Source: Pseudomonadota bacterium
GTDB taxonomy: Bacteria > Pseudomonadota > Alphaproteobacteria > Rhizobiales > Aestuariivirgaceae
Assembly: GCA_020161855.1 (NCBI GenBank)
Contig: JAIUNJ010000004.1
Span: forward strand, 248,001-312,000
Length of the DNA: 64,000 nucleotides
Reading direction: 5' to 3'
The notes under the pieces were generated by a model. The model had not been told where the DNA came from. It was given only the letters and a program-made list of their open reading frames with translations, and made no database searches. Positions 33,141 to 60,071 of this stretch are shown piece after piece (within the stretch, counting starts at the first letter, position 1; each line of letters opens with the position of its first letter). A program made the position numbers and the translations under genes.

Positions 33141-33323
33141 GCCGCCCGTCTCTCGTCCGGAAATCCAGGTTCCTGCTGTGTGGGGCACTGCCCCCTGATC
33201 GCCCCCTCCATCGGGCATTCCACCCGTTTTCCCTAGTATTGTGCAGTTGCAGCAATTCCGGACACTTGACTCTACTTTGTGTCAGGCGTCGAAGTGATGC
33301 ATTGGGGAAATCAGGAGGGAACC

Positions 33324-36300
33324 ATGACCATTACCTTCAACTATTCGGCCGGCCAACCGAACCATGACTGGCTGCTGGCCCTGTTTGACGCCGCCAAGAA
33401 CGGCACCTTTGCAGCGGCGACGGGTGGCGGTACGGCAATCGTCATCTCTCACAATGGCTTTGAGGTCCACCTCGCAGGCACAGGTCTCGACAAGAGCGGC
33501 ACCGAAGGCAATCAACTGGCTTCCGGCAACGTCACGGGCCTGTCGATCTACGACGGGAGCGACCTGGTGCTCGCCATCACCGGGCTCACGACCGGCGCTG
33601 AAGGAATCAATGAACTTATCGACCATGCCCAGACGCTCAGTGCTAACCCGGAGGACGAGGGCCAGTATAGCCTGCTCGACTATATCTATGGGTTGGGCCT
33701 GTTCGACGAAGCGATCTCGGCAACCGGCAGCAATGACGGCGAGGAAATCTACGGCAGCAGTTACGCTGATACGCTCAATGGCGGAGACGGCGACGACTAC
33801 ATCGAAACCCAGGGCAACGCCGACGACCCGGGCAATCCGGACGTTGTCAATGGCGGCGATGGCATCGACTTCCTCAACCTCAAGCCCGGACAGAACAGCG
33901 GCGTCACTGTCAACTGGATCGATGGCGAGGTGCGTGACAGCAACACCAGCGACCTTCTCGTGCAGTTCAGCAATATCGAGCAGATACAGCTCACCGGCCA
34001 TAACGACATTTTCAATGGCGCTGGCGGCAACGATGTCGTGCGTGCCCGCGAAGGTGACGATCAGCTGAATGGCGGCGACGGCGATGACTATCTGGAGCCT
34101 GGCGCGGGCACCGACACGATTGACGGCGGCGATGGCTGGGACAAGATCGGCTATGCCTTCAACGGCAACAACGGTGGCGACGGAATCACGGTAACCTTCA
34201 CCGGCGGCGGTAACGGGTGGGTTATCGATACCTTCGAGGACACCGACACCTTCTCGGGCATCGAAGCTGTGAAGGGCAGCCAGTATAACGACGTATTCAA
34301 CGGCGACGAGGACAACAACTATTTCGAGGGCATGGCGGGCGACGATACCTTCTATGGCAATGGTGGCCTCGATACCGTCAGCTACGAATGGGAGCACGAA
34401 AGGGGCGGCAGCCAGGGCATCCTTGTCGATCTTGCGCTCGGCGGAGCCTGGGACACCTTCGGCGACGACGATGTTCTAGTTGGCATCAAGAGCATTCGTG
34501 GATCGATCTATGGCGACCTCATAAGTGGCGATGATGATCACAATGAACTCTTCGGACTTGATGGCGACGATACTGTTGAGGGCCGCGGCGGCGATGACTT
34601 CATTACCCTGGGGGGCGGCACGGACCACGCTGATGGCGGCACAGGCTGGGACAAGCTGAGCTATGTCGATGACACGGGCAGCAATGGCATCATCGTCGAT
34701 GTCGGCGATGGCACGGTGACCGACACCGAAGGCAACACGGACACCTTCAACGACATCGAAGCCTTCCAGGGCAGCCAGAATGACGACATCTTCAACGGCG
34801 ATGTCTTCGACAACTGGTTCGAAGGCATGGATGGCAGCGACACCTATTTTGGCGGCGGCGGCCGCGACGCGGTCAGCTATGAATGGGAACATGTGGTCGG
34901 CGGTACCAGCGGTGTCGTGATCGACCTGTCCAGCGTCGATGACAATGGCTTCGCCACCGGCACGGACACCTACGGAAACACCGATTATTTCAAGGCCATC
35001 AGCGACATCATTGGTTCTGTTTACGGAGACACCATCACCGGCAATGGCTCCAGCAATCTTATTCGCGGCTTCGGTGGCGAAGACACAATCCATGGCGGTG
35101 GCGGCCACGATGAAGTGCGTGGCGATGATGGCGATGATTATGTCTATGGCGACGACGGCAACGACAAGGTGCGCGGCGGCACCGGCAACGATCACGTCTA
35201 TGGCGGCGAGGGCAACGACAACATCAGCGGCGGCTTGGGCGACGACGTAGTGGATGCCGGCGCAGGCCATGACTGGATCAATGGCGAAGGTGGCACGGAC
35301 ACCCTGGATGGCGGATCGGGCTATGACGTCCTGAACTATGAGAAGGATTTCGATCCCGAGTTTTCTGCAAATTATGACGGCGATGGAGTTACGGTGACGC
35401 TCACCGATACCGGCCTTGGAAGCGGTACGGTGACAGGCTTCTACGAGACCGAAATCAATGGTGATCCCGCCTCGGTCAATACCACCTTCGAGAACCTCGA
35501 GCAGATCATCGGCACCTGGCGCGACGATGTCTTCAACGCGACCATTGGCGGCTTCGAAAACACCGACGACGCCCAGCGCAGCTTCGGATCCTATGGCGTT
35601 TTTGCCTTTGTGGGCGGCGACGGGGCCGACACCTTCAACATCCACATCGACCTTGTGCTGATCGACTACAGTGAAGAGGTCTGGCGCCATCAGGGTTTCG
35701 ACGGCAGCCACCAGTGGGGCGAGGCTGACAACGAGAATGGTGTCGTCGTCAATCTTTCCGGCACGATGCAAGAGGGCGTGGCCGACGGTCATGCGCGCGA
35801 CACCTTCGGCAATCTTGACGTGCTCAACATCACGGGCGCGATCTCGTTCCGTCTTACTGATGCTGACGACATCGTCTGGGCGGGCGGCACTGACACCTAT
35901 GCCGAAGGCATGTTCGGCAATGATATCTTCCATGGCGGTTCCGGCAATGACCTCTTCGAGGGCTCCGAAGGCAATGACACCATGTATGGTGGCAATGGCG
36001 ACGACGAGTTCAACGGCGGCGATGACAACGACACATTCCATGGCGGCAATGGCAATGACACCGCCTATGGCGAAAGCGGCAACGACGTCCTGAACGGAGA
36101 CACCGGCAACGACGATCTCCGCGGCGATGATGGCGACGACGAGATTCACGGCGGTGCCGGGCGCGACCGCATCGACGGCGGCGCCGACAACGACACGCTC
36201 TATGGCGACGCCGGCAATGACCGGCTGCGGGGCGGCGACGGCAACGACATCGCCTATGGCGGTGAAGATGACGACACGGTCGAAGGCCATGATGGAAATG

Positions 36301-37730
36301 ACAACATCTTCGGTGGCAATGGCACGGACGACCTGCGCGGCAACAACGACAATGACCGGATCAGCGGTGGCCAGGGCTCCGACAAGATCGACGGCGGTGA
36401 TGGCGATGATGTCCTGTCGGGTGACGACACGCTCAATCTGAATGAAATCATCGACTATGTGAACGACGCGGGTGCCGGGGATGATGCTGCCTATGCCCGT
36501 TTCGAAGCGCTGTGGGATGGTATCGATTCTGTTGGTGCCGGGGCTGATCTGATCTTTGGCGGCATCGGCAATGACATTATCTTTGGTGGCCAGGGCGCCG
36601 ACGAAATCTATGGTGAAGACGGTGCGGACAGGTTGTTTGGCGGCCTCGGGGACGATCAGGTCTTTGGTGGCAACAATGATGATTTTATCAGCGGCTCCGG
36701 CGGCAATGACCGTCTCTTCGGTGAGGGCGGAACTGATACGCTGAATGCCGGGAGCGGGGATGACTTTGCCGATGGTGGCGAAGGCAACGACACGATCATC
36801 GGACGCTCGGGCAATGACTGGCTCGACGGCGGCAACGGCAACGACACGCTCTACGGCGATGACCCCAATGATCTGTCAGCGTCTGGCAATGACACGCTGA
36901 ACGGTGGTGCCGGGGCAGACAGGCTGGAGGGTGGCTTCGGGAAGGACAAACTCTACGGCGGCCTTGATGACGACGTCTATGTCTGGAAGGCGGCCTATAA
37001 TGATGGCAACGAGGATACCATTTCCGATAGCGGAGGCATTGATACCCTGGAGACCGATATCAGCGGCATCAACCTGCTGACGAACACCCGGATCTCTGCT
37101 GTCGAAAACATCACCCTTGTGAACAACGCTGCGAATGCGACGGGCAACAACAACAACAATGTGTTGACGGGCAACAACGCGGCCAACACATTGACCGGCC
37201 TGGCAGGCAACGACACGCTGATTGGTGGTGCTGGTACTGACACGCTTAACGGCGGTCAAGGCAAGGATACGCTGAACGGCGGCGCCAACAGCGATCGCTT
37301 TGTGTTTGCTGTGGGTGACTCCGCCTTCAACAACTTCGACGTCATCACCGGCTATACGAAAGGTGCCGTTAATACGGTGGGCGACAAGTTCGACTTCGGA
37401 GCAACGGCGCTGGTGCGCGGCGGCACGGCCGCAGCAGCAACCGCCTCCCAGGCGTCGATCAATCAGACCTCCGGCGTCGCGACTTTCGCCTCGGGCTCCG
37501 GCACGACCATGACTGATTGCGTCAACGACATCGCCGCGCGCATCAATGCGGGAGGCACCAAGGCCGGTGAATTCGCCTTCTTCAAGATCAACAAGGCCGG
37601 TTCCTACTACCTGTTCATCTCTGATGGCGTGAACGGCGCCAGCGCCAATGATGTGGTCATACAGCTTTCCGGTGTGACGGCGATCAGTACGCTCAACCTG
37701 ACAGGTGGCGACCTCACCATCCTGACGTAA
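33324..37730 (+). CDS. large acidic RTX (hemolysin-type calcium-binding repeat) exoprotein
   Basis: 1468 residues from MTITFNYSAGQ, chosen because AGGAGGG lies just before it; a GTG 15 codons upstream lacks a site. No Sec signal. Residues 1-135 form a unique N-terminal region. From about 140 to 1290 the protein is built from GGxGxDxUx calcium nonapeptides, densest at about 570-660 and 860-1040. A larger unit of about 165-171 residues occurs twice (GWDKIGYA near 270 and GWDKLSYV near 441; SYEWEH near 355 and 519). The C-terminal 140 residues (TLNGGANSDRFVF to NDVVIQLSG, DLTILT end) resemble RTX secretion regions. No enzyme domain recognised. Likely a type I-secreted surface or matrix protein. 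Confidence 0.9.
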   Translation: MTITFNYSAGQPNHDWLLALFDAAKNGTFAAATGGGTAIVISHNGFEVHLAGTGLDKSGTEGNQLASGNVTGLSIYDGSDLVLAITGLTTGAEGINELIDHAQTLSANPEDEGQYSLLDYIYGLGLFDEAISATGSNDGEEIYGSSYADTLNGGDGDDYIETQGNADDPGNPDVVNGGDGIDFLNLKPGQNSGVTVNWIDGEVRDSNTSDLLVQFSNIEQIQLTGHNDIFNGAGGNDVVRAREGDDQLNGGDGDDYLEPGAGTDTIDGGDGWDKIGYAFNGNNGGDGITVTFTGGGNGWVIDTFEDTDTFSGIEAVKGSQYNDVFNGDEDNNYFEGMAGDDTFYGNGGLDTVSYEWEHERGGSQGILVDLALGGAWDTFGDDDVLVGIKSIRGSIYGDLISGDDDHNELFGLDGDDTVEGRGGDDFITLGGGTDHADGGTGWDKLSYVDDTGSNGIIVDVGDGTVTDTEGNTDTFNDIEAFQGSQNDDIFNGDVFDNWFEGMDGSDTYFGGGGRDAVSYEWEHVVGGTSGVVIDLSSVDDNGFATGTDTYGNTDYFKAISDIIGSVYGDTITGNGSSNLIRGFGGEDTIHGGGGHDEVRGDDGDDYVYGDDGNDKVRGGTGNDHVYGGEGNDNISGGLGDDVVDAGAGHDWINGEGGTDTLDGGSGYDVLNYEKDFDPEFSANYDGDGVTVTLTDTGLGSGTVTGFYETEINGDPASVNTTFENLEQIIGTWRDDVFNATIGGFENTDDAQRSFGSYGVFAFVGGDGADTFNIHIDLVLIDYSEEVWRHQGFDGSHQWGEADNENGVVVNLSGTMQEGVADGHARDTFGNLDVLNITGAISFRLTDADDIVWAGGTDTYAEGMFGNDIFHGGSGNDLFEGSEGNDTMYGGNGDDEFNGGDDNDTFHGGNGNDTAYGESGNDVLNGDTGNDDLRGDDGDDEIHGGAGRDRIDGGADNDTLYGDAGNDRLRGGDGNDIAYGGEDDDTVEGHDGNDNIFGGNGTDDLRGNNDNDRISGGQGSDKIDGGDGDDVLSGDDTLNLNEIIDYVNDAGAGDDAAYARFEALWDGIDSVGAGADLIFGGIGNDIIFGGQGADEIYGEDGADRLFGGLGDDQVFGGNNDDFISGSGGNDRLFGEGGTDTLNAGSGDDFADGGEGNDTIIGRSGNDWLDGGNGNDTLYGDDPNDLSASGNDTLNGGAGADRLEGGFGKDKLYGGLDDDVYVWKAAYNDGNEDTISDSGGIDTLETDISGINLLTNTRISAVENITLVNNAANATGNNNNNVLTGNNAANTLTGLAGNDTLIGGAGTDTLNGGQGKDTLNGGANSDRFVFAVGDSAFNNFDVITGYTKGAVNTVGDKFDFGATALVRGGTAAAATASQASINQTSGVATFASGSGTTMTDCVNDIAARINAGGTKAGEFAFFKINKAGSYYLFISDGVNGASANDVVIQLSGVTAISTLNLTGGDLTILT

Positions 37731-46992: not shown

Positions 46993-47901
46993 ATGGCACT
47001 GAGACCGAAAGAATCATTCCAGGACCTGATCCTGACGCTCCACAACTATTGGGCGGAGCAGGGCTGCGTCATCCTGCAACCCTATGACATGGAAGTGGGC
47101 GCCGGTACCTTCCACCCGGCCACGACGCTGCGCTCGGTGGGGCCACGGCATTGGTCAGCGGCCTATGTGCAGCCCTCGCGCCGCCCCAAGGACGGCCGCT
47201 ATGGCGAGAATCCCAACCGGCTGCAGCACTACTATCAGTACCAGGTGATCATGAAGCCCTCGCCACCTAACCTGCAGGAGCTTTATCTGGGATCGCTGAA
47301 TGCGATCGGCATCGACCCGCATCTGCATGATCTGCGCTTTGTCGAGGATGATTGGGAAAGCCCGACGCTGGGTGCCTGGGGTCTGGGCTGGGAAGTCTGG
47401 TGCGATGGCATGGAAGTGTCGCAGTTCACCTATTTCCAGCAGGTGGGCGGCCTCGACTGCGCCCCGGTTTCGGGCGAACTCACCTACGGGCTCGAGCGAC
47501 TGGCGATGTATGTGCAGGACGTGGACAATGTCTACGACCTCAACTTCAACGGCCGCGCCAAGGGCGACGGCCGCATCAGCTATGGCGATGTCTTCCTGCA
47601 AGCGGAGCAGGAGTACTCGCGCTTCAATTTCGAGTATGCCGACACGGCGATCCTGCACCAGCATTTCATCGACGCCGAGAAGGAGTGCAAGTCGCTCCTG
47701 ACGGCAGGCGAGAAGGATGGCAGCCACGAGCTATGCCTGCCGGCCTATGACCAGTGCATCAAGGCCTCGCATACTTTCAACCTGCTCGATGCCCGTGGCG
47801 TCATCTCGGTGACGGAACGCGCCAACTACATCGCCCGGGTACGCGACCTCGCCAAGGCCTGTTGCGAAGCCTGGAGCAAGACGGCGGGAGGGCGCGCCTG
47901 A
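46993..47901 (+). CDS. glyQ: glycyl-tRNA synthetase alpha subunit
   Basis: 302 residues, the normal length, from [16 protein letters not shown]. The class II catalytic elements are intact: [54 protein letters not shown] and [19 protein letters not shown]. With GlyS it forms the bacterial alpha2beta2 enzyme that charges tRNA-Gly. The frame is open 29 codons upstream but without coding character. The stop shares one base with the glyS start (TGATG). Confidence 0.97.
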
Positions 47902-49913
47902 TGGCCGAGCTTCTTCTCGAACTCTTCTCCGAGGAAATCCCCGCCCGCATGCAGTCGAGGGCAGCGGAGGATCTGCGCGCCCTCATCACCAACGGATTGG
48001 TAGAGGCCGGTCTCACCTACGAAGGGGCACAGGCCCATGCCACGCCGCGCCGCCTGGTGCTTTCTGTGGAGGGCCTCAACGCCCGCGCCGCCGACACGCG
48101 CGAGGAGCGCAAGGGCCCGCGCGTCGATGCCCCGCAACCGGCAATCGATGGCTTTCTCAAGTCAACCGGCCTCAGCCTCGACCAACTCACGGTGCAGGAA
48201 GACAAGAAGGGCAGCTTTTATCTCGCGGTGATCAAGAAGGATGGCCGCGACGCCACAGGCATCATCGCTGATCTCGTGCCGCAGGTGATCCGCAGTTTCC
48301 CCTGGCCCAAATCCATGCGCTGGGGTTCAGGAAGCTTGCGCTGGGTGCGGCCGCTTCACTCCATCATCTGCACCTTCGATGGCGAGGTTGTGCCGCTGGA
48401 TGTCGAAGGCATCGCCAGCAGCAACACCACGCGCGGCCACCGCTTCCTCTCGGATGGCGCGATCGCGGTGCGCCGCTTTGAGGATTATGCCCAGAAGCTG
48501 TTCAAGGCCAATGTGATCGTCGATGCGCAGGCGCGCGCCGAGACGATCCGGACCGAGGCCAAGAATCTTGCCTTCGCGCAGGGGCTGGAAGTGGTCGAGG
48601 ATGAGGGCCTGCTGAAGGAAGTGGCCGGTCTTGTCGAGTGGCCGGTGGTTCTGATGGGCGCTTTTGACGAAGCCTATCTTGATGTGCCGCCGGAAGTGAT
48701 CATCACGACGATCAAGAACAATCAGAAGTGCTTCTGCCTGCGCAATGGCAAGACGGGCCTGCTCAGCAACCGCTATCTGCTCGTTTCCAACATGCTGGCA
48801 CGTGACGGTGGCAAGGAGATCATCCGCGGCAATAACAAGGTGATTGCCGCGCGCCTTTCGGATGCGAAGTTTTTCTGGGACCAGGACCGCAAGGTGAAGC
48901 TGACGGACAACCTCGCCAAGCTTGATGCGATCACCTTCCATGCCAAGCTGGGTACGGAAGCGCAGCGCGTGCGCCGCATCGAGGCGCTGGCCGCCGAGAT
49001 CGCCAAGACCATCGGTGCCGACATTGAAAAGGCAAAGCTTGCGGCTCGCCTTGCCAAGGCCGATCTCGTGACCGGCATGGTAGGCGAGTTCCCGGAGCTT
49101 CAGGGGCTCATGGGCCGCTACTATGCCCTTGATCAGGATGTGGATGCCGAGGTGGCCGACGCCATCCGCGATCACTACAAGCCGCAAGGCCCCTCGGATT
49201 CCATTCCGGAATCGAAAATCGGACAGGCCGTGGCGCTGGCCGACAAACTCGATACGTTGGTGGGCTTCTGGTCCATCGACGAGAAGCCAACGGGTTCCAA
49301 GGATCCATACGCACTGCGCCGCGCGGCGCTCGGTGTGATCCGCATCATCCTTGGCAAGGAACTCCGTGTGCGGATGAACAAGATCGAGCCCGATCTTCTC
49401 TCATTCTTCGCGGATCGCCTGAAAGTCTATCTCAAGGATCAGGGCGCCCGCCATGACCTGATCGATGCCGTGTTCGCACTGCCCGGCCAAGATGATCTGC
49501 TGATGGTGGTGAAGCGTGTTGAGGCACTGGGCAAGCTGCTCGAGACCGATGATGGCCGGAACCTGCTGGCCGGCGTGAAGCGCGCCGCCAATATTCTGAA
49601 GATCGAAGAGAAGAAGGACAACCAGCGCTACGCGGGCGATGTGAATTCGGCGCAGCTCATCAAGGGCGAGGAAAAGGCCCTGCATTCCGCCATCACCGTG
49701 CAGTCGGCGCAGGCGCGCAAGGCCATCGAGAATGAAGATTTTGAGGCTGCCATGCGGGCCATCGCCAAGCTGCGCGCGCCCGTCGATGCCTTCTTCGAGC
49801 ATGTGACGGTCAATGACAAGGACCAGACCTTCCGCGTCAACCGCCTGCGTCTGCTGAACCGCATCCGCGAAGCCTGCTCGGAAGTGGCGGATTTCTCCAG
49901 GATCGAGGGCTAG
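47901..49913 (+). CDS. glyS: glycyl-tRNA synthetase beta subunit
   Basis: 670 residues, slightly shorter than E. coli GlyS (689). N-terminus [18 protein letters not shown]3/4-like and HD-like regions in the middle ([40 protein letters not shown]) and a C-terminal anticodon-binding helical domain ending in [15 protein letters not shown]. The last 154 bp exist a second time at 51112-51265, fused to the start of an MFS gene. This copy is complete and coupled to glyQ. Confidence 0.97.
49760..49913 (+). repeat. glyS 3'-end repeat, copy 1 (parental)
   Basis: From the CATCG at 49760 to the stop codon this segment aligns without gaps to 51112-51265. I count three mismatches in 154 bp, all silent third-position changes. 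Similarity stops within a few bases after the stop codon. Confidence 0.9.
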
Positions 49914-49930
49914 CCGAGGAACTGACCTGC

Positions 49931-49959
49931 TTGCGGATTTGAGGACCTGCCTGTATAAG
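49931..49959 (+). promoter_or_regulatory. sigma70-like promoter of the riboswitch-cbiM transcript
   Basis: TTGCGG (49931-49936), 17-bp spacer, TATAAG (49954-49959). Transcription would begin near 49966, at the 5' edge of the cobalamin riboswitch. Confidence 0.6.
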
Positions 49960-49961
49960 AT

Positions 49962-50160
49962 TTCATGATGGTGCTGTGGTTGGCTACAACTGCCGCGGCT
50001 GAAAAGGGAACACGGTGCGGAAGACCCCAGAGGGACCAAAGCCGTGGCTGCCCACGCAACTGTAAGCGGTGAGGAGTCCTGCAGATGCCACTGGCCATTT
50101 GGCCGGGAAGGCGCAGGAGACCAGAGACCCGCGAAGTCAGGAGACCTGCCATCAGCAACA
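49962..50160 (+). ncRNA. cobalamin (B12) riboswitch
   Basis: The conserved elements occur in order: GGTGCTGTGG, GAAAAGGGAACACGGTGCGG, a GGCTGCCCACGCAACTGTAA core, GCGGTGAGGAGTC, GCCACTGG, GGGAAGGCGCAGGAGACC and the B12 box AAGTCAGGAGACCTGCC (50134-50150). This is the classic aptamer, which folds on adenosylcobalamin and switches the downstream gene off. An additional hairpin CTGCAC-GATGG-GTGCAG (50190-50206) abuts the GGAGGA ribosome-binding site (50207-50212), pointing to control of translation. No U-run terminator is seen before the start codon. Confidence 0.93.
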
Positions 50161-50218
50161 GGCGCTGCTTCGCGCCGGTCAACTTACATCTGCACGATGG
50201 GTGCAGGGAGGAATAGAC

Positions 50219-50896
50219 ATGCATATCGAACCCGGCGTCGTCGACGGCGCCAAGATTGTTCTCAGTTACGCTACCGCCGCAGCCTCATTTGGGGTGACCG
50301 GCAAGCTGGCATTGGACGCAATCCGGAAGGACGGCGTTGGCGCCCTGGCTTTGCGAGCGGCGATTGCCACGGCGCTCGTCTTTAGCTTCTTCGAAATCCT
50401 GCCGCACCATCCGGTGGGCGTGTCCGAAGTCCACCTTATCCTCGGATCGACTCTCTTCTTGTTGTTTGGTGCAGGCCCGGCCGCCATCGGTCTTGCGCTT
50501 GGCCTTCTCATTCAGGGCGTGTTCTTTGCGCCCTTCGACCTCCCGCAATATGGTATGAACGTCACGATCCTGCTGGTGCCGCTCTTCGCGCTCAACCTTC
50601 TGGCCAAGCGCGTCATCCCTGAAAAGACGGCCTATGTAGACCTCAAGTACAGCCAGGCGCTGGCGCTGTCAGTGAGCTATCAGGGCGGCATTGTTGCTTG
50701 GGTTGCCTTCTGGGCGCTTTACGGGCACGGCTTTGGTGCGGAGAACCTTTCCAATATTGCTTCCTTCGGTCTGGCCTACATGAGCGTTATCCTGCTCGAA
50801 CCGCTGGTCGATCTCGGTGTGCTCGCCGGCGCCAAGGCAGTTAGGCAATTGCAGCGGACCGCAATCGTCCAACCACGTGTTTACCAGTCAGCCTGA
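50219..50896 (+). CDS. cbiM: CbiM-type cobalt ECF transporter substrate-capture protein, solitary
   Basis: 225 residues with about six to seven membrane segments. The extreme N-terminus MHIEPG keeps the His at position 2 that, with the free amino terminus, coordinates Co(II) in CbiM/NikM. HHPVGVSEVHLILGS and LFGAGPAAIGLALGLLIQG match the family core. CbiM normally works with CbiN, CbiQ and CbiO; none follows here. GGAGGA sits seven bases before the ATG. Expression is under the cobalamin riboswitch, so cobalt uptake for B12 synthesis is the natural role. The protein is distant from enteric CbiM, so related metal transport is possible. Confidence 0.82.
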   Translation: MHIEPGVVDGAKIVLSYATAAASFGVTGKLALDAIRKDGVGALALRAAIATALVFSFFEILPHHPVGVSEVHLILGSTLFLLFGAGPAAIGLALGLLIQGVFFAPFDLPQYGMNVTILLVPLFALNLLAKRVIPEKTAYVDLKYSQALALSVSYQGGIVAWVAFWALYGHGFGAENLSNIASFGLAYMSVILLEPLVDLGVLAGAKAVRQLQRTAIVQPRVYQSA

Positions 50897-50923
50897 GTCA
50901 CCTCGGCGTCTGTAGGAGTTCAG

Positions 50924-50955
50924 AAGGCGCTCCATCAAGGTGGGGCGCCTTTTCC
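50924..50955 (+). terminator. Rho-independent terminator after cbiM
   Basis: AAGGCGCTCCA (50924-50934) pairs over 11 bp (one G-U) with TGGGGCGCCTT (50941-50951), followed by TTTCC. Confidence 0.85.
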
Positions 50956-50994
50956 TTTGGTTGCGACATTGGCGGCGCAGCGCTTTTCTAGCGC

Positions 50995-51116
50995 TCTGGT
51001 ACTACGCGGCGTCATGTGCCGGTGTTAGAGCGCGGACATGCACCACGCGCCCGACTCCTCCTATTCCTGGTTCCGGATGGCGATTTCGCTGGCCCTGGCC
51101 ATGATCGGCGGCATCG
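50995..51116 (+). repeat. MFS-gene 5'-end repeat, chimeric copy
   Basis: Aligns without gaps to 56101-56222. By eye there are 15 mismatches in the 43 bp before the ATG, and 8 in the 79 coding bases, six of them silent. The leader AGAGCGCGG before the ATG is shared. Similarity to the MFS gene ends exactly where similarity to glyS begins (CATCG, 51112-51116). Confidence 0.85.
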
Positions 51117-51265
51117 CCAAGCTGCGCGCACCCGTCGATGCCTTCTTCGAGCATGTGACGGTCAACGACAAGGACCAGACCTTCCGCGTCAACCGCCTGC
51201 GTCTGCTGAACCGCATCCGCGAAGCCTGCTCGGAAGTGGCGGATTTCTCCAGAATCGAGGGCTAG
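51038..51265 (+). pseudogene. in-frame chimera: MFS N-terminus fused to glyS C-terminus
   Basis: 75 codons. Residues 1-26 (from [14 protein letters not shown] to AMIGGI) match residues 1-26 of the MFS protein encoded at 56144 with two differences. Residues 27-75 ([14 protein letters not shown] to VADFSRIEG) are identical to the last 49 residues of GlyS. The join keeps the reading frame because both parents share ATC-G at the same codon phase. The product would be part of one membrane helix plus a fragment of the anticodon-binding domain, so no function is expected. I class it as a recombination scar, but it has an intact start, frame and stop and could be translated. Confidence 0.85.
51112..51265 (+). 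repeat. glyS 3'-end repeat, copy 2 (in chimera)
   Basis: Second copy of glyS 49760-49913, beginning at the CATCG shared with the MFS segment. Three silent differences. Confidence 0.9.
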
Positions 51266-51504
51266 AACGCCACCTGCCTCTATTCCGCGATGAGTCTGGT
51301 TGCTCTCTTCGCGGCGTTCTGTCCAAAGCTCTGACGCGTTTTCGTTCCGCTTGAGCAAACGCGTTGCGCGATGCGGAATTTCATCTGCTGCAATGTAACG
51401 TATCGATTCAATCGGAACAGAGTGGCAGAAAGATTGTTGCGTTACTGAAGACCTGTCGCGATCCAGTTTATACTTCGACAGGATTTGCAGAAGAAAATCA
51501 TCCC

Positions 51505-52077
51505 ATGATGATTGACTTACGCGCCGAAGCAGCCGGGATGCAGTCTCAAGAGCAGCAGTGCTCCCGCTTGATGCAGGCCAGTGCGGCCCTCTCTGCATCC
51601 CCCGCAGCGCTTTGGAGCGCCGCATGGACTTCGCTCCGCCGCCACTTGCCGCAGCGGAAATTCATGCAGCTTCTGATGAAATCCGATGGTGCAGCGGCCG
51701 TCGAGTTTGCAATCGTCGCACCGGTCTTCATATTACTCGTCTTCGGCATGATCGCATATGCGATCTATTTTGGCGCGGCGCATTCCGTTCAGCAGTTGGC
51801 TGGCGATGCCGCCAGGGCTGCTGTCGCGGGTCTGGACAGCAGCGAACGCCAGAATCTTGTGAAGCAGTTCATCAGCAAGAACGGCGCTTCCTACTCGTTC
51901 ATAGACGTTTCGAAACTGCAATATTCGGTCGGAAACGCCGCAGCTGACCCGACGCAGCTCGCGGTCGTGTTGTCCTATGATGCCAGGGAACTGCCGATCT
52001 GGGGACTATTGCCCTCGGGCCTGCTTCCGGACGAGACCGTGACTCGCCGGGTGAGTATCCGCATCGGGGGAGTCTAG
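51505..52077 (+). CDS. TadE-like pilus-assembly/minor pilin protein
   Basis: 190 residues as annotated. The TadE-like core is SDGAAAVEFAIVAPVFILLV, one transmembrane helix with the conserved Glu, followed by QLAGDAARAAVAGLD. The start is uncertain: ATGs at 51505, 51508 and 51664 and a TTG at 51364 are all in frame and none has a strong ribosome-binding site; the 51664 start would give 137 residues, closer to usual TadE. The TadG-like gene begins on the base after its stop. No tadA/B/C, cpaB or pilin gene is present in the window. Confidence 0.78.
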   Translation: MMIDLRAEAAGMQSQEQQCSRLMQASAALSASPAALWSAAWTSLRRHLPQRKFMQLLMKSDGAAAVEFAIVAPVFILLVFGMIAYAIYFGAAHSVQQLAGDAARAAVAGLDSSERQNLVKQFISKNGASYSFIDVSKLQYSVGNAAADPTQLAVVLSYDARELPIWGLLPSGLLPDETVTRRVSIRIGGV

Positions 52078-53790
52078 ATGCAGACTGCCTTGCTTGCATT
52101 GATTGCGAGATTTGCCCGTGACGGGCGGGGCAACATAGCCTTGATGAGCTCGCTGCTGTTCTCCGTGCTGGTCATGTGCGCCGCTTTCGGTGTCGACGAG
52201 GGAGCCTTGTACTACGATCGCAGGCAACTTCAGGGCGCGGCCGATGTGGCGGCAATCGTGGCGGCGGGCAATATTGGAAACGCGGATCGCGCCGCCCGCG
52301 CGGCGCTCTTGGACAACGGTTACTTGCCCAAGGATATTGATGGTCTCGGGATTGTGCAGCCAATGGGGCAATACCGGGATGTTTCAGCAATCGAGGTGCA
52401 AACCGGATCCTACCGGCCGGCGAGATCGACTGCACCGGATCAGCGATTCACACCGGGCGGCAGCAATCCGAATGCTGTGCGAGTCTCTGTGAGAAGCCCA
52501 GGCGCGCTCTATTTCGCGTCCATGTTTGCCGAGCCGCCGACTTTGTCGGCGGAAGCCATCGCCAGCACGGAAGCCATTGCTGCATTCTCGATTGGTTCAA
52601 GGCTTCTGAGCCTGAATGACGGGATTCTGAACGCCCTGTTATCCGGTCTTCTGGACACCACCATATCACTCGATGTCATGGACTACACGGCCCTTGCCAA
52701 CGCCAATCTCAGCTTGCCTGATTTTCTCGATGAGCTGGCAAAGGAAGTGGGGTTGAAGGCCGGCACTTATGACGCCTTGCTTGCAGAGAAGGTTACTTAC
52801 CGGCAACTCACGACGGCTCTGTCGAAAGCACTTGCAAAAGATGCATCTGCAAACAGGGCGATGAGCCGCTTCAGCAAACAGGCAGCCTTTTCCCGGAGTG
52901 AGATCCCTCTTTCGGAGCTTTTCAATCTTCGGGATGCAGGCGGCATGACCATCGGCGAGCCCGGGTCGCGTCTGGAGCTGACGGTCAACGCCCTTGAAGT
53001 CGTAGGTGCCAGTGCGGCTTTGGGAGGCGAGAACCAGATTGCGCTCGACCTGTCGACGGCAATCCCGGGCGTGGCTTCCAGCTCGGTTTATCTGACTCTT
53101 GGAGAACGTCCGCAGGGTACATCATGGTTTAACGTTGGCGGCCGTGGGAGCACGGTGCAGACGGCTCAGACCCGCCTCCGTCTCGTTCTCCAGGTTGGCG
53201 GCACTGGCCTGCTTGCAGGGACTACCCTGCGGATTCCGGTCTATCTTGATCTCGCCTTTGCCGAGGCGACGCTTGAGAACATCTATTGCCCGGCCAAGTC
53301 TGGCAAGGACAGGGCCGTACGCATCGCCGCAAAGCCTGGCGTAGCTGATCTCTGGATCGGCGATGTCACGACTGCGCAAATGAAGGATCTGGCAAATCCG
53401 GCGAATGTCAAAGTCGCGACTTTTGCGAAGGTGCCATTGATCACGGTGACCGGCAGCGCTCACGTGAATATCGGCAACATGAAGGCCCGGCCTCTTGATT
53501 TCTCAATAGCCGACATTGAAAGCCATTCCGCAAAGAGCGTCTCCACCACGGATGTTGCGGCTCCTCTCTTTGCTTCGTTGCTGGGTGACCTCAAATTGAC
53601 GGTGAAAGTTGCCGGCCTCGGGCTGAATGCGGATGCGATTGGAACCTCGGTTTCCGATGTGTTGAAGCCACTGGCTCCGGCCGTTGATTCATCGATCCGC
53701 AGCCTTTTGGGCCTCTTGGGCATCAAGGTCGGTGAGGCAGATGTCTGGGCCAATGGTGTACAATGTGGCCGGGCAGTTCTGGTTCAGTGA
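52078..53790 (+). CDS. TadG-like protein (Flp pilus-associated, TadE/G N-terminal domain)
   Basis: 570 residues. The N-terminal RDGRGNIALMSSLLFSVLVM segment is the TadG/TadE-type anchor, followed by AAFGVDEGALYYDRRQLQGA and AADVAAIVAAGN, the usual opening of TadG proteins. The remainder is presumably periplasmic, without a von Willebrand domain that I can identify. The gene starts immediately after the TadE-like stop. The pair looks like an orphan fragment of a tad locus; codon use is less GC-biased than in the flanking housekeeping genes. Confidence 0.78.
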   Translation: MQTALLALIARFARDGRGNIALMSSLLFSVLVMCAAFGVDEGALYYDRRQLQGAADVAAIVAAGNIGNADRAARAALLDNGYLPKDIDGLGIVQPMGQYRDVSAIEVQTGSYRPARSTAPDQRFTPGGSNPNAVRVSVRSPGALYFASMFAEPPTLSAEAIASTEAIAAFSIGSRLLSLNDGILNALLSGLLDTTISLDVMDYTALANANLSLPDFLDELAKEVGLKAGTYDALLAEKVTYRQLTTALSKALAKDASANRAMSRFSKQAAFSRSEIPLSELFNLRDAGGMTIGEPGSRLELTVNALEVVGASAALGGENQIALDLSTAIPGVASSSVYLTLGERPQGTSWFNVGGRGSTVQTAQTRLRLVLQVGGTGLLAGTTLRIPVYLDLAFAEATLENIYCPAKSGKDRAVRIAAKPGVADLWIGDVTTAQMKDLANPANVKVATFAKVPLITVTGSAHVNIGNMKARPLDFSIADIESHSAKSVSTTDVAAPLFASLLGDLKLTVKVAGLGLNADAIGTSVSDVLKPLAPAVDSSIRSLLGLLGIKVGEADVWANGVQCGRAVLVQ

Positions 53791-53838
53791 TAAGCTGCCA
53801 GCGGCGGCAATGACCTGAGGTCATTCTAGTGCCCGGCC

Positions 53839-54654
53839 TCAAGATGCTTTCGGCAATCCGCTCTGCGTTTCCGGAGCGGCGAAGTAGTTCATTGATGGGT
53901 TGATGGAATGCTGGGCTGAGAAGCTAAGTAGAGTTTCCTGTACGTGGTTGCGCAGGGCCTCTTCAGCCTTCAAGGGCAGCGTGCATCCGACAACGAGCAA
54001 GGAATTCTCGCGCCAGTCCATGACGGGTACTGCAATGGTCTGCAGGCGCGGATCCGTTTCTCCATGCACCAGAGCGTATCGTCTCTCTCGAACCTCCTTG
54101 ATAATGTTCTGCATCGAGGCAACGCCATCCGCACTCTCGCCCTGCATTTCCGACTCGCGACTGATCAAGGCGCTTGTTTGTGCTGGAGACAGATATGCCG
54201 CGAAAACGCGGCCGGCCGCGGTTCGCGTGACGGGCATAACGTGCCCAGGCAGTGTGTTCACGCCGATGGGGTTGTCTGCATAGGTCCAACGAACAATCAC
54301 AGGCCCCGCCGACGTCCAGATGGAGAGAAAAACATGGCAGCCTGTTTCACGGGCAAGTTCTTGCAGGTTGTTTTCAACCAGTGCGAACAGATCAATCTGC
54401 CTCATGGCTGCCAGACCCAGATGAATGCAGTTCCTGCCGAGCGCATATTGGCCGTGCCTGTGACTCTGCACGGCGAAATTTCTCTTCACAAATGTTGTAA
54501 GATAGCGATGAACCTTGCTGGGTGCTTCATGGCAAGCGTGGCTGAGTTCGCTCAACGATAGCGGTTGTGTTGCCTTTCCGAGCGCTTCAAGAATGCTCAA
54601 AGCGGTATCGAGCGATTTGATCCCCGCCGGATCGTGTCCGTATTCATGATCCAT
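53839..54654 (-). CDS. IclR-family transcriptional regulator
   Basis: 271 residues from MDHEYGHDPAGIKSLD; AAGGA lies six bases before this ATG, and a GTG two codons upstream overlaps the site. The winged helix occupies about residues 12-70 (SLDTALSILEALGKATQPLS, SKVHRYLTTFVKRNF), and the IclR effector domain follows (LFALVENNLQELARETGCHVFL, TAAGRVFAAYL). It converges on tadG. Target and ligand are unknown; the nearest divergent gene is 600 bp away. Confidence 0.87.
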   Translation of the reverse strand: MDHEYGHDPAGIKSLDTALSILEALGKATQPLSLSELSHACHEAPSKVHRYLTTFVKRNFAVQSHRHGQYALGRNCIHLGLAAMRQIDLFALVENNLQELARETGCHVFLSIWTSAGPVIVRWTYADNPIGVNTLPGHVMPVTRTAAGRVFAAYLSPAQTSALISRESEMQGESADGVASMQNIIKEVRERRYALVHGETDPRLQTIAVPVMDWRENSLLVVGCTLPLKAEEALRNHVQETLLSFSAQHSINPSMNYFAAPETQSGLPKAS

Positions 54655-54660
54655 CGTCAC

Positions 54661-55267
54661 TCCTTCGCGCCAATACTACGACCTCGTCTCCAGAGCCGCC
54701 GGGCGCGCAATTGCGGATATTATAGATCGTGCCATCTTTCACGAGGCTGTAACGGAGCCTCAATTGGAGAGGTGTGTTTCATGCTTGTGAATAGCAAGCC
54801 ACGGCGCAGATTAATCTTGTAGTGGCCGATACGTTCCGGCGGCGCACGTCCAATATGTATCTTATGTGTCCGGTCTTGTTACGCAGTTTCGCGCTTGGCG
54901 ATATGAGGGTTGCAGCAAGAAAGACTCAGTTCCGCATGGTGAAACGCAGAGCGCTTTAAATTAATCCGTTTACTGACATTTATACACGTGCCGATCATCT
55001 GTTTCTAAGCGCCGGCACATACATTGCTCGTCCATGAGCTGTTGATGGCTCGCAGGAGATCGCAGTGTTGGCGGAATACCTCATTGCCGGAATTCAGACG
55101 CTACCGTGTTCAACTTCGAATGAGAGCAAGATTGTTGCACCGCGCAACAATCCTGCATCGTTCGGGACGGCAGATATCGTCCCGGCAACCAACAATGCGC
55201 AACTGGCCGATGTTCACGCAAAACGCAGCGGCCGCCGGTTCACCGCGAAGATATGGGAGAAGGTATT
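54661..55267. other. 607-bp intergenic region, relatively A/T-rich
   Basis: No gene seen. Short frames here lack coding character. The stretch is visibly richer in A/T than the rest (for example CGCTTTAAATTAATCCGTTT near 54952), and it presumably contains divergent promoters for the IclR gene and the secreted protein. No tRNA, repeat or terminator was recognised. Confidence 0.5.
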
Positions 55268-55957
55268 ATGCAGTTGAGAAAATGCACAGAAGCTCTGGCC
55301 ATTGCGGCCCTCGCCGCTTTCATCTGGGCCGGTCAGGGCACTGCTGCGGGTTTGGTTGACCGCGTTGGTGGCGTTGTTGGCAAAGTGACCAAAGACGTCA
55401 GCAAGTCGGTAGGCAGCACTGTTGGAAAGACGACATCAGGGCTTTCCAGCGCCACTTCCAGCCTCGGCAAGGCCGCAGGTGGTCTTGCAAGCAGCAGCAG
55501 CTCGGGCGGCACGAACACCACGACACTCGGCTCCAAGACTGGAACATCGGCGAAAGTGACAAGCGGCAATGGTACCATTGAAGCTGCTGTTCAGGACCGG
55601 CTCAACAGTATGAGCCGCAAGCAGCTTGCCGCAGTCTGCAACTCTGTCGGCGGCAACGGCTGCAGTACCGCCACGCGGCAACAACTGCTGGGAATCATTG
55701 ACGTGCGGATGGAGACGATGGGGCCCCGTCGGCTGGCGAGTCTTTGCGTCTCAATCAATGGTGGCTGCGGCGGCACCCGCATCCGCCCAAGGCCGCCGGG
55801 AACTGTCGATCCCGATGGGAAGCCTGGGCCGATCAAGGCCTGGCGTTCTGGCAGCAAGGTTGACCAGGATGTCATTCTGACCTGCCGGAAGATTCTTGCT
55901 TCGCCGAAAAAATACGACCCTGGCATGGTCAAGCTGTGCCGGGCAGTGAAACTCTGA
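55268..55957 (+). CDS. secreted hypothetical protein with a duplicated cysteine unit
   Basis: 229 residues from MQLRKCTEALAIAALAAF, a Sec signal peptide (cleavage near residue 27, TAAG). GGGAGAAGG lies before this ATG; an ATG five codons upstream is less likely. Residues 30-90 are Gly/Ser/Thr/Lys-rich. A unit of about 36 residues then occurs twice: RLNSMSRKQLAAVCNSVGG and RMETMGPRRLASLCVSINGG, each with a pair of cysteines (C...GC). A C-terminal DQDVILTCRKILASPKKYD segment carries another pair. No known family recognised; exported structural or binding protein. Confidence 0.65.
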   Translation: MQLRKCTEALAIAALAAFIWAGQGTAAGLVDRVGGVVGKVTKDVSKSVGSTVGKTTSGLSSATSSLGKAAGGLASSSSSGGTNTTTLGSKTGTSAKVTSGNGTIEAAVQDRLNSMSRKQLAAVCNSVGGNGCSTATRQQLLGIIDVRMETMGPRRLASLCVSINGGCGGTRIRPRPPGTVDPDGKPGPIKAWRSGSKVDQDVILTCRKILASPKKYDPGMVKLCRAVKL

Positions 55958-56100
55958 TCGGCCGTCTTTTACGGCCAGACACCTTGATCTGATATCCAAC
56001 TGAAGCTTCACCGACACCCGGTGGCGTGCGGGGACGAAATCCTTGTGCGTCACCGGAGCCTGGCGGCCTCTCGCCTTGCTTCCGGGCCACAATTGCTGAG

Positions 56101-56222
56101 TCTGGCACTACGCCACCGCCGCCCGGGGTGATAGAGCGCGGCAATGCAATACGCGCCCGACTCCTCTTATTCATGGTTTCGCATGGCCATCTCGCTGGCC
56201 CTGGCCATGATCGGCGGCATCG
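56101..56222 (+). repeat. MFS-gene 5'-end repeat, parental copy
   Basis: Covers 43 bp before the MFS start codon and its first 79 coding bases; ungapped partner of 50995-51116. Confidence 0.85.
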
Positions 56223-57352
56223 GAATCTGGGCCGCCGTGGTGACCCTGCCAGTCATCCAGCAGGAATTCGGCATTGACCGCTCCGGCGCTTCGTTGCCCT
56301 ACACGCTGACCATGATTGGCTTTGCCCTGGGCGGCGTGCTCGCCGGGCGCATGGCGGACCGCTTCGGCATCTGGGTGCCCTTGGTGCTTGGCACCGTGTT
56401 TCTCGGCTCCGGCTTCATTCTCAGTGGCTTTGCCACCGGCTACTGGATGTTCGTTGCGGCACAGACCGTGCTGGTCGGAATCCTCGGAATCGCAGTCACC
56501 TTCGGCCCGCTTATCGCGGATGTTTCGCTCTGGTTCCAGAAGCGGCGGGGCATTGCTGTGGCCGTTGTTGCTAGCGGCAACTATCTCGCCGGCACGATCT
56601 GGCCGCCCATCCTGACGGCAGCGATCGAGACCTGGGGTTGGCGCAATGCCTACATCGCAATCGGCATCATTGTGATCATACTGATGTTGCCGCTGGCGCT
56701 GCTGCTCAAGCCGCGCGCTTCGCTGGAGGAGCGGCCTTCGCCCACCTCGATGAACCGCGAGATCAACGGGACGCCGGTGCTGCAGGCGCTGATTGTTCTG
56801 GCGGGCCTCGCCTGTTGCGTCGCCATGTCAATGCCACAGGTTCACATCATCGCCTATTGTGTCGATCTCGGCTATGGCGTGGTGCGCGGCTCCGAGATGC
56901 TGTCCCTGATGCTTGGCTTCGGTGTCGCCAGCCGTCTCATATCGGGTTTCCTGGCCGACAGGATCGGCGGCGTGGGCACGCTCATCATCGGTTCCACGCT
57001 GCAATGCCTGGCATTGATCCTCTACATTCCCTTTGACGGGTTGATGCCGCTCTATGTGGTGTCATCGCTCTTCGGTCTGGCTCAGGGCGGCATCGTGCCG
57101 AGCTATGCCCTGATCATCCGCGACAACTTCCCGGCGCGCGAGGCAGGTTTCCGGATTTCGCTGGTATTGACGGCAACGGTGCTGGGCATGGCGCTGGGCG
57201 GCTGGCTCTCGGGCGAGATCTATGATGTCACCGGTTCCTATACCGGCGCGTTCATCCACGGCATTGCCTGGAACCTGCTCAACATGGCGATTGCCGCCTG
57301 GCTTATCTTCCGGGGCCGCAAGCCGGCGCGGGCACGCATGGCTGCGGCGTGA
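56144..57352 (+). CDS. MFS transporter, oxalate/formate antiporter-like
   Basis: 402 residues with twelve membrane segments. The GVLAGRMADRFGIWVPLVLG loop motif after TM2 and FLADRIGGVGTLIIG in the second half are typical MFS signatures; the overall pattern resembles monocarboxylate/oxalate-formate (OFA) transporters. The first 26 codons and leader have a diverged copy at 50995-51116. Located 79 bp before the PPDK-like gene; in this lineage the ancestral order was perhaps glyS, MFS, PPDK without the intervening accessory genes (inference). Substrate unknown. Confidence 0.83.
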   Translation: MQYAPDSSYSWFRMAISLALAMIGGIGIWAAVVTLPVIQQEFGIDRSGASLPYTLTMIGFALGGVLAGRMADRFGIWVPLVLGTVFLGSGFILSGFATGYWMFVAAQTVLVGILGIAVTFGPLIADVSLWFQKRRGIAVAVVASGNYLAGTIWPPILTAAIETWGWRNAYIAIGIIVIILMLPLALLLKPRASLEERPSPTSMNREINGTPVLQALIVLAGLACCVAMSMPQVHIIAYCVDLGYGVVRGSEMLSLMLGFGVASRLISGFLADRIGGVGTLIIGSTLQCLALILYIPFDGLMPLYVVSSLFGLAQGGIVPSYALIIRDNFPAREAGFRISLVLTATVLGMALGGWLSGEIYDVTGSYTGAFIHGIAWNLLNMAIAAWLIFRGRKPARARMAAA

Positions 57353-57431: not shown

Positions 57432-60071
57432 ATGAAGGCCACCGCCGACCAGCCATTGACGCATGTGCTCGACCCGTCTCTGGCGGGCCGTGAGCTGGCC
57501 TTTGGCCAGAAGGCTGCACAGCTGGCCCAGCTCGCCGATCTTGCATTGCCAGTGCCCGATGGCTTCGCAATTTCGGCCGCCGCCCTGCGCAACATGACGG
57601 AGCAGATCGCCGAACCGCTGGTGCTGGCGATCTTTGGAGAGGTTGCCGCGCTCGCCGGCCGGCTGAAGCGCGGTTTCGGTGCGGCCGAGAATCCGCTCTT
57701 GCTGGCGATCCGCACCAGCGCTCCACCCGGCGTGCCCAATTCCATCGAGGCTGTGCTGAATGTCGGTCTCAATGATGCAACCGTTGAGGCACTTGCGGCA
57801 GAGACCGGTGATATCAACTTCGCCTATGAGAGCTACCGGCGCTTCATACAAAACTTCGCGCATGTGGTGCTCGGCGACGATCCTGCTGCCTTTGAAGACG
57901 TGCTGTCGCTCTACAAGGAAGAACGCGGCTACGTCTCGGAGAGTGAACTGCGTGGCTCCGATGCGAGGGAATTGGCCGGGCGCTTCAAGGCCCAGTTCGC
58001 CAGCAACAACGGCGAGGAATTTCCGCAGGACGTGAATACCCAGCTTGCTGCCTGCGTGCTGGCGTTGATGCGGGCCTGGAATGCGCCGCGGGCGCGGACG
58101 CAGCGCAAGCTGCAGGCCGCCCGCGAAGACGCAAGCCTTGCCATCATCGTGCAGGAGATGGTCTTCGGTAACCTCGGTGATGACAGCGGCGTGGGCCGCG
58201 CCTTCTCGCGCAATAGCCAGACCGGCATCGCACGTCTCTCCGGCGAATATTTGCCTCGGGCCCAGGGGCCCGATCTCGTGAACCGGCTGCGGCAGGTGCT
58301 GCCGTTGCAGAACGGTGACGGCACTTCCCTGGCGCAGGAGGCGCCCGCTGTTTTCTCCCTGCTCCAGAATGGCATCGGCTGCATCGAGGCGCAGCTTCGC
58401 GATGCGATCGAGGCTGAATTCGTCATCCAGCAGGGCAAGCTCAGTTTTCTTTCCGCAAAGCCGTCGAAGAGATCCACGGCGGCCTCGCTGCAGATCGTCA
58501 TTGATTTCGTCAATGCCGGATTGTTGACGCGCGAGGAAGCGCTGCTCCGCATTGACCCGCTCTCGCTTGATCAGCTCCTGCACTCTACCATCGATCCGGA
58601 CGTGAAGCGCACCGTCATTGCCTCTGGCCTGCCGGCCTCTCCCGGAGCCGTGTCCGGCGCCATTATCTTTGACGCCGAGGAGGCGCGCCGCCTTGCCGCC
58701 GATGAACAATCGGTGATCCTTGTGCGCCCCGAAACGCTGCCGGAGGATGTCCGTGGTCTTCATGCCGCGGCAGGCGTGCTGACCACCCGTGGCGGCATGA
58801 CTTCGCATGCGGCGGTGATCGCGCGCGGCATGGGCAAGCCGTGCGTCTCGGGTGCCTCATCGCTGCGCATCGACGCTGCCGCCGGCACCCTGACAGCGCC
58901 GGGCATGACATTGAAGAAGGGCGATATCATCACGCTTGATGGCGGCACCGGGCAGGTGCTGAAGGGCGAGGTGGAAACGCGCAAGCCCGAGCTTTCCGGC
59001 AATTTCGCAACACTTCTGGCCTGGGCTGACGAGTACCGCCGCATGACCGTGCGCGCCAATGCGGAGACCGTGCAGGACGCGCGCATGGCCCGCGATCTTG
59101 GCGCGGAGGGCATCGGCCTTTGCCGCACCGAGCATATGTTTTTCGAGGGCGACCGCATTGTTGCCATCCGCGAGATGATCCTCGCCGACCGCGAGCGCGA
59201 CCGCCGCGCAGCTCTCGCCAAGACCCTGCCGATGCTGCGGGCGGATTTCGTGGAGCTGTTCGAAATCATGGCGGGGCTACCTGTCACGCTGCGCCTGCTT
59301 GATCCGCCGCTGCATGAGTTCCTGCCGGAGGGCAAGGTGGAGATCGAGGCCCTGGCCCGGGCGCTGGGCGCTGATCTTGCCGCCCTGAACCGCCGCATCC
59401 AGGATTTGCGTGAACAAAACCCGATGCTGGGTCATCGCGGTGTGCGCCTGCTGTTGAGCTATCCCGAGATCGTCGACATGCAGGCCCGTGCTGTCTTTGA
59501 AGCGGTTGTCGAAGCTGCACGTTCCACCGGCAGGCCGCCGATCCCCGAGATCATGGTGCCGCTGGTGGCTTCGCGCGCCGAACTGGACCTTGTGCGCAAG
59601 CGCATCGATGCCGTAGCCGAGGAAGTCCAGAAAGAGTCAGGCCTCAACTTCACCTATCGCGTGGGCACCATGATCGAGCTGCCGCGCGCCGCACTCAGGG
59701 CGGGCGACATCGCCCAATCTGCCGAGTTCTTCTCTTTCGGGACCAACGACCTGACCCAGACGACTTTCGGCATCAGCCGCGACGACAGCGCCCGCTTCAT
59801 CGGTGAATATACCTCCAAGGGCATCTTCCAGCAGGATCCCTTTGTCACGCTCGACGTGGAAGGGGTGGGTGAGCTGGTGCATTTCGCCGCCGAACGGGGC
59901 AGGGCGGCGCGGCCGGGCCTGCACCTGGGCATCTGTGGCGAGCACGGCGGTGATCCCGCCTCCATTAACTTCTGTGAGTCTTTGGGGCTGGACTATGTCT
60001 CATGTTCGCCTTACCGCGTCCCCATTGCGCGTTTGGCCGCAGCCCAGGCGCGCCTCCGGAATTTGAGATAA
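57432..60071 (+). CDS. pyruvate, phosphate dikinase paralogue with degenerate ATP-grasp domain
   Basis: 879 residues from MKATADQPLTHVL; the frame is open further upstream only as a shadow of the MFS gene. The central phosphohistidine domain (TRGGMTSHAAVIARGMGKPC, His459) and C-terminal PEP/pyruvate barrel (EGIGLCRTEHMFF, NPMLGHRGVRL, FSFGTNDLTQTTFGISRDD, LGICGEHGGDP with Cys) are intact. The N-terminal ATP-grasp half is eroded: the usual SGARxSMPGMMDT loop reads TSAPPGVPNSIEA, and Gln335 and Arg337 of the Clostridium symbiosum enzyme align with Ser341 and Lys343. ATP use is doubtful; PEP-pyruvate phosphotransfer through His459 remains possible. Confidence 0.85.
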   Translation: MKATADQPLTHVLDPSLAGRELAFGQKAAQLAQLADLALPVPDGFAISAAALRNMTEQIAEPLVLAIFGEVAALAGRLKRGFGAAENPLLLAIRTSAPPGVPNSIEAVLNVGLNDATVEALAAETGDINFAYESYRRFIQNFAHVVLGDDPAAFEDVLSLYKEERGYVSESELRGSDARELAGRFKAQFASNNGEEFPQDVNTQLAACVLALMRAWNAPRARTQRKLQAAREDASLAIIVQEMVFGNLGDDSGVGRAFSRNSQTGIARLSGEYLPRAQGPDLVNRLRQVLPLQNGDGTSLAQEAPAVFSLLQNGIGCIEAQLRDAIEAEFVIQQGKLSFLSAKPSKRSTAASLQIVIDFVNAGLLTREEALLRIDPLSLDQLLHSTIDPDVKRTVIASGLPASPGAVSGAIIFDAEEARRLAADEQSVILVRPETLPEDVRGLHAAAGVLTTRGGMTSHAAVIARGMGKPCVSGASSLRIDAAAGTLTAPGMTLKKGDIITLDGGTGQVLKGEVETRKPELSGNFATLLAWADEYRRMTVRANAETVQDARMARDLGAEGIGLCRTEHMFFEGDRIVAIREMILADRERDRRAALAKTLPMLRADFVELFEIMAGLPVTLRLLDPPLHEFLPEGKVEIEALARALGADLAALNRRIQDLREQNPMLGHRGVRLLLSYPEIVDMQARAVFEAVVEAARSTGRPPIPEIMVPLVASRAELDLVRKRIDAVAEEVQKESGLNFTYRVGTMIELPRAALRAGDIAQSAEFFSFGTNDLTQTTFGISRDDSARFIGEYTSKGIFQQDPFVTLDVEGVGELVHFAAERGRAARPGLHLGICGEHGGDPASINFCESLGLDYVSCSPYRVPIARLAAAQARLRNLR

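Follow-up and report, generated by a model that had tools for sequence, protein, structure and literature searches.

The 75-codon open reading frame at positions 51038-51265 is probably a scar left where a single additive recombination event brought together two diverged versions of the glyS-MFS locus. Two pairs of direct repeats are observed here, together with a joint that fuses the head of an MFS transporter gene to the tail of glyS, two unlike cargos, and a glyS-MFS order that is the usual one in the congeners, which are the 36 other genomes of the genus, taken by us to be Aestuariivirga (several of them incomplete; 25 stretches were read in detail). Since the cargo differs between the two repeat units, a union of two alleles is preferred over a duplication of DNA from the genome itself.

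Direct repeats and the two cargo units

The window, i.e. the whole stretch of 64,000 nucleotides that was analysed, covers positions 248001-312000 of its contig and belongs to a genome of 3.36 Mb in 19 contigs, with 92% completeness and an estimated contamination of 0. The features of the locus follow each other in the order glyQ-glyS, riboswitch, cbiM-like gene, hairpin, chimeric frame, tadE, tadG-like gene, iclR, an open frame, MFS and a ppdK-like gene. The names glyQ, glyS and ppdK are those that we take these genes to deserve, the last one being backed by Pfam matches. The features are listed below.

47901-49913, + strand: glyS, full length; its final 154 nt (49760-49913) form copy 1 of the glyS-tail repeat
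49952-50167, + strand: cobalamin riboswitch RF00174 (cargo A), 128.5 bits
50219-50896, + strand: cbiM-like cobalt-uptake membrane protein (cargo A), Pfam PF01891, E 6e-16
50922-50953, + strand: terminator-like hairpin with a T-rich tail, 3' of cbiM, a pattern match only
50978-51037, + strand: leader with similarity to the region 5' of the full MFS gene, in an alignment that scored above 500 shuffles
51038-51265, + strand: chimeric frame of 75 codons, with MFS codons 1-26, the joint, and the last 49 codons of glyS with its stop
51112-51116, + strand: CATCG, the five-base overlap at the joint, from the joint analysis
51505-52077, + strand: tadE-like gene (cargo B), PF07811, E 7.5e-13
52078-53790, + strand: tadG-like gene (cargo B), PF09977 and PF13400
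53839-54660, - strand: iclR-family regulator (cargo B), PF01614 and PF09339
55253-55957, + strand: open frame, a gene without Pfam match at E 0.01 (cargo B)
56144-57352, + strand: full-length MFS transporter, PF07690, E 3.4e-43
57432-60071, + strand: ppdK-like PEP-utilising enzyme, PF02896, PF00391 and PF01326, also found to the right of MFS in congeners

Direct repeats were searched for in the region of 47-60 kb and then in the whole window. The glyS-tail repeat has a length of 154 nt (49760-49913 and 51112-51265) with 98% identity, and the MFS-head repeat has a length of 96 nt (51021-51116 and 56127-56222) with 89% identity, its second copy being formed by the end of the leader and the first 79 nt of the MFS gene. 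These repeats delimit two units (unit 1, 49760-51116; unit 2, 51112-56222), both of which consist of a glyS tail, a cargo, and an MFS leader and head. The cargo of unit 1 is the cobalamin riboswitch with cbiM (cargo A) and that of unit 2 comprises tadE, the tadG-like gene, iclR and the gene without a Pfam match (cargo B). No repeats of at least 30 nt were found between the two cargos, and the self-search of the window gave short hits only.

One further direct repeat family of at least 40 nt was found in the whole window, with seven copies of 60 nt that show 60-70% identity to the reference copy. Six of the copies lie inside two genes with RTX repeats and one is at 11199. Two large proteins with RTX calcium-binding repeats are encoded at 28733-31060 and 33279-37730, the former of which also matches a serralysin C-terminal family. 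The terminator-like pattern was found four times, against 1.6 expected in shuffles.

The five-base joint and the chimeric frame

The preliminary description of this DNA had reported an in-frame chimera of 26 MFS codons and 49 glyS codons with its switch at CATCG, and both observations were confirmed. The frame is fully open in the open reading frame reading of the window and gives 75 aa, and copies of CATCG are present at 49760, 51112 and 56218 of the window sequence. The overlap at the joint is exactly five bases, with the bases that flank CATCG differing on either side. Among 200,000 random joints between glyS and MFS, an overlap of at least five bases occurred in 0.76% (P 0.0076). Guidance of the joint by an extended similarity before CATCG was rejected, as no excess was seen over 1,998 other five-base matches (P 0.21).

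The length of the overlap also bears on the possibility that two strains of one sample were merged into one contig during assembly. Such a merger would suit a genome that is in 19 contigs and 92% complete, two alleles that resemble strain variants, and near-identical 154-nt repeats only 1.35 kb apart. However, the joint shares just five bases and the estimated contamination is 0; assemblers use overlaps that are far longer than five bases. We consider an artefact of this kind quite improbable. The whole genome holds just three matches to the chimera and a single MFS match at E 1e-60. A second glyS and the remainder of the MFS gene to which the fragment would have belonged (MFS') were looked for in the genome, which is 92% complete, and not found; the presence of that remainder elsewhere in the genome was rejected in the absence of a second match at E 1e-60.

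The frame might instead be a new small gene that is maintained by selection, with its expression depending on the copied MFS leader. It is open, the 10 bases TAGAGCGCGG directly 5' of the start are identical in both MFS copies, and its differences from the full-length genes are mostly silent, although these silent changes are equally explained by the earlier life of the two halves in working genes. A Pfam scan of the frame at E 0.01 and a scan of 49880-51520 for sigma-70-type promoters gave no match. The preliminary description had named an old conserved gene as the contrary outcome of a comparison with sister genomes, and a search of the 36 further genomes of the genus, several of them incomplete, revealed no chimera. 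Two of these (G036 and G027) align to almost the entire chimera query, and they do so within frames of 780 and 701 residues that are glyS itself. A new gene under selection is thus very unlikely, and the chimeric frame is probably a passive by-product or scar and no working gene. That the joint bore a small protein, made up of the first MFS helix and the GlyS tail, which is expressed from the copied leader of the transporter gene and has come under selection, we hold to be doubtful in the extreme.

Divergence of the copies and origin of the arrangement

The differences between the copies were counted anew with the same outcome as before. In the MFS part, eight differences were found in 79 nt, six of them silent and two replacing residues (codons 2 and 3), and in the glyS part three differences were found in 154 nt, all of them silent. 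The silent share is therefore 9 of 11 coding differences, against a neutral expectation of 0.25-0.30 under unconstrained drift (P 1e-4 to 5e-4, about 2e-4), in a test that pools both branches and is generous to the two-allele reading because any model predicts silent changes in the full gene. For the glyS part alone, with three of three differences silent, the corresponding P is 0.015-0.026. These silent changes point to a joint that arose after the two halves had diverged. The 60-nt regions 5' of both MFS starts are also related, with a global alignment score of 5.0, whereas 500 shuffles gave a mean of -14.4 (sd 4.1). The relatedness of these regions had been noted earlier with about a third of the bases changed; they are somewhat more different than that, with 31 of 60 positions equal in the ungapped comparison.

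When set against five congeners (G032, G006, G007, G004 and G026), TCT, TCA and TTT (codons 8, 10 and 12) occur only in the full-length MFS gene and CGG is confined to the fragment; codons 2, 3, 15 and 16 gave no clear polarity. At codons 10 and 12, the third bases of the full-length MFS gene are also present in G024, a more distant congener, but in different codons. At least three changes thus look new in the full-length gene, in a polarisation that involves few sites and distant congeners, which argues that the fragment is not simply a decayed copy of the neighbouring gene. This pattern fits the earlier suggestion that the MFS part derives from a diverged homologue that had been under selection. 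Of the three glyS changes, two seem to be new in the fragment, and the third, which is shared by G026 and G024, seems to be new in the full gene.

The two halves of the frame differ in their divergence. Third-position differences amount to 3 of 51 in glyS against 7 of 26 in MFS (Fisher P 0.026). The pace of the full-length genes relative to G006 is 0.20 for glyS and 0.52 for MFS, with a median ratio over genome pairs of only 1.1, and a comparison over all sites gives a P between 0.03 (equal pace) and 0.32 (MFS 2.5 times faster). The glyS halves are 2% diverged, which is less than the MFS halves, and a single divergence time would therefore call for rates that were unequal or for subsequent gene conversion. 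Such conversion may have taken place between the two copies of glyS, and the evidence for separate histories of the two halves is suggestive only.

Our preferred reading starts from two versions of the locus, one of them with the riboswitch and cbiM between glyS and MFS', and the other with tadE, tadG, iclR and the open frame between glyS and MFS. A fragment reaching from the last 49 glyS codons to MFS codon 26 would have had its two ends joined at CATCG, and the end-joined fragment would then have entered the other chromosome beside the resident version, so that both cargos were kept with the joint of the MFS' head and the glyS tail between them. The simplest path would be a donor fragment recircularised at CATCG into a circle of 1,352 bp, which is the exact spacing of the glyS-tail copies, and a single crossover in the 154-bp glyS tail; this is the path if cargo A was the incoming one. 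If cargo B was incoming, the circle would have 5,106 bp and the crossover would fall in the 89% identical MFS head. The entry of cargo A would be the easier of the two. A linear fragment with homology at one of its ends and an illegitimate joint at the opposite one would give the same product. We infer that the two versions belonged to different lineages, which of the two versions was the donor, and that a circle was involved. The glyS tail, as the target, is duplicated in direct orientation (49760-49913 and 51112-51265) around the added riboswitch and cbiM, and unit 1 runs from the glyS tail through its cargo to the MFS head with an illegitimate joint. A genome with one of the two alleles alone, and thus a donor allele, was looked for among the 37 genomes of the genus (25 of the 36 congeners in detail, several incomplete) and not found.

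The preliminary description had read the arrangement as the novel joint that a tandem duplication would make. A recombination joint is supported and the order is that of a novel joint, whereas a simple duplication is less likely than a union of two alleles. In a plain tandem duplication, the genome's own glyS tail and MFS head would have been duplicated at CATCG, with cbiM and tad genes inserted separately later on. The same gene order results, 8 of 18 congeners have cargo in this gap, and the glyS part is only 2% diverged. However, both copies of a small gap would each have had to receive a later insertion. A fragment free of selection is expected to collect mostly replacing changes, yet 9 of 11 are silent (P about 2e-4, both branches pooled), and three or more of the MFS changes seem to have arisen in the full-length gene. 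Plain duplication gives equal cargo in both units unless both cargos arrived later, and the units do not carry the same sequence, although later insertions could mask an equal start; the additive union gives the observed arrangement in one step. We regard the plain duplication as unlikely.

Several known systems offer parallels. PMC3240628, on conjugation in E. coli, reports a PCR product of a partial duplication in 56 of 60 clones (109-950 bp in 14 that were sequenced), explained by a shortened circle that crosses over once. The present locus likewise has a partial duplication of the target gene (154 bp) beside added DNA. That system was a plasmid built for the test, whereas this is a natural locus in which the closing joint fused two coding frames in phase. 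According to the same study, most products of homology-facilitated illegitimate recombination contain 3-10 bp of micro-homology, and a deletion is generally present. The five-base joint and the gain of cargo beside a homologous gene are alike, but recipient sequence is duplicated here where it is generally deleted there. Both glyS and MFS are full length, and the locus is not classed as homology-facilitated illegitimate recombination because of this duplication without deletion, deletion being general and not obligatory in that class.

A related displacement is proposed in PMC5361080 for effector-immunity modules of Vibrio cholerae, where the incoming module is placed next to the resident one and the end of an old gene stays behind. 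Competitive selection and repeated events are involved there, in contrast to the housekeeping genes and one event of the present case. Merodiploids formed by transformation, as described in PMC3784515, show partial duplications with novel junctions that were made during DNA uptake, including one of 3,276 bp without flanking repeats; those are mostly of about 100-900 kb between repeats, unlike the units of 1.35 and 5.1 kb with unlike cargo and a five-base joint found here. No title about this locus was among the literature matches listed, which is not proof of absence. The event is of a known kind, neatly preserved, and established views are unchanged by it. Its value lies in an unusually readable natural record of an apparent additive recombination, with both units, both cargos and the five-base joint still visible; the locus also shows how the gap between core genes can gather one cargo after another, and how chance can create gene fusions that are in phase.

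The locus and its cargos in related genomes

The adjacency of glyS and MFS is common but not universal in the genus. An MFS match at E 1e-60 was found in 25 of the 36 congeners, the closest of these proteins being about 76-83% identical (two of them partial). A closer relative was also looked for among genome contigs and rejected, the best MFS match being 77% among the best 80 of 584 matches. In 18 of the 25 congener stretches that were read, MFS lies behind glyS on the same strand, across a gap of 79-2738 nt. The full glyQ-glyS-MFS-ppdK order was found in eight of the first 20 stretches (G006, G002, G004, G026, G029, G001, G031 and G017), the others of which end too early or are without one part. 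The glyS/MFS pair was not seen in seven of the 25 stretches. Three congeners (G011, G007 and G016) have the two genes on separate contigs, as does G027, which is outside the 25 stretches, and no match to MFS at E 1e-60 was obtained in three more (G022, G033 and G036). In G003 (contig C9), the last of the seven, and in G020 (contig C37), which is outside the 25 stretches, the two genes are about 11 kb apart on opposite strands, an arrangement not seen in the other congeners read.

A gap of at least 910 nt between glyS and MFS occurs in 8 of the 18 congeners. Nine gap proteins from five of these eight genomes were scanned, three of which had no match. The matches were to Sbt_1 (a bicarbonate transporter) and LysR in G035 and G018, to uracil-DNA glycosylase in G029, and to RTX repeats in G034. 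The five cargo proteins of the window had no match at E 1e-8 in the 18 congener gaps. The cargo taken up by the gap therefore differs between lineages. In G024, glyQ is located behind glyS and not in front of it, within the glyS-MFS gap (L051:4068-6229).

A cbiM match at E 1e-15 was found in 10 of 61 genomes, the source genome included, and the presence of the riboswitch was confirmed in four of these in addition to the window (G032, G006, G030 and G057). This cassette is positioned behind clpX-lon in G032 and G006, beside other genes in G030, and behind glyS in the window; clpX and lon are presumed from the look of their translations. As a counter-point to the two-allele reading, the cassette could have moved within the genome. 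The lon region of the source genome was checked for a cobalamin riboswitch and cbiM and neither was found, and a cassette at that position was accordingly rejected; about 7 kb of other genes separate lon from the next shared neighbour there. Relatives of the tadG-like gene (E 1e-20) and of iclR (E 1e-40) were found in one and three of the 60 other genomes, respectively.

Cargo B was also considered as a mobile element and rejected, three of its four main genes, which were the ones scanned, matching tad or iclR families and the fourth matching nothing. In 500-nt windows, the G+C content is about 58-61% in cargo A, about 52-61% in cargo B with a minimum between iclR and the gene at 55253-55957, and mostly 61-67% on the MFS-ppdK side. 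This profile gives no sign as to which of the cargos is foreign.

The alignment of the G006 glyS gene (L034:1198-3390) is split into two parts, about 210 nt apart, near residue 495, and the glyS alignments of L035 and L051 also break near this residue. GlyS may thus contain a variable insert at this position.
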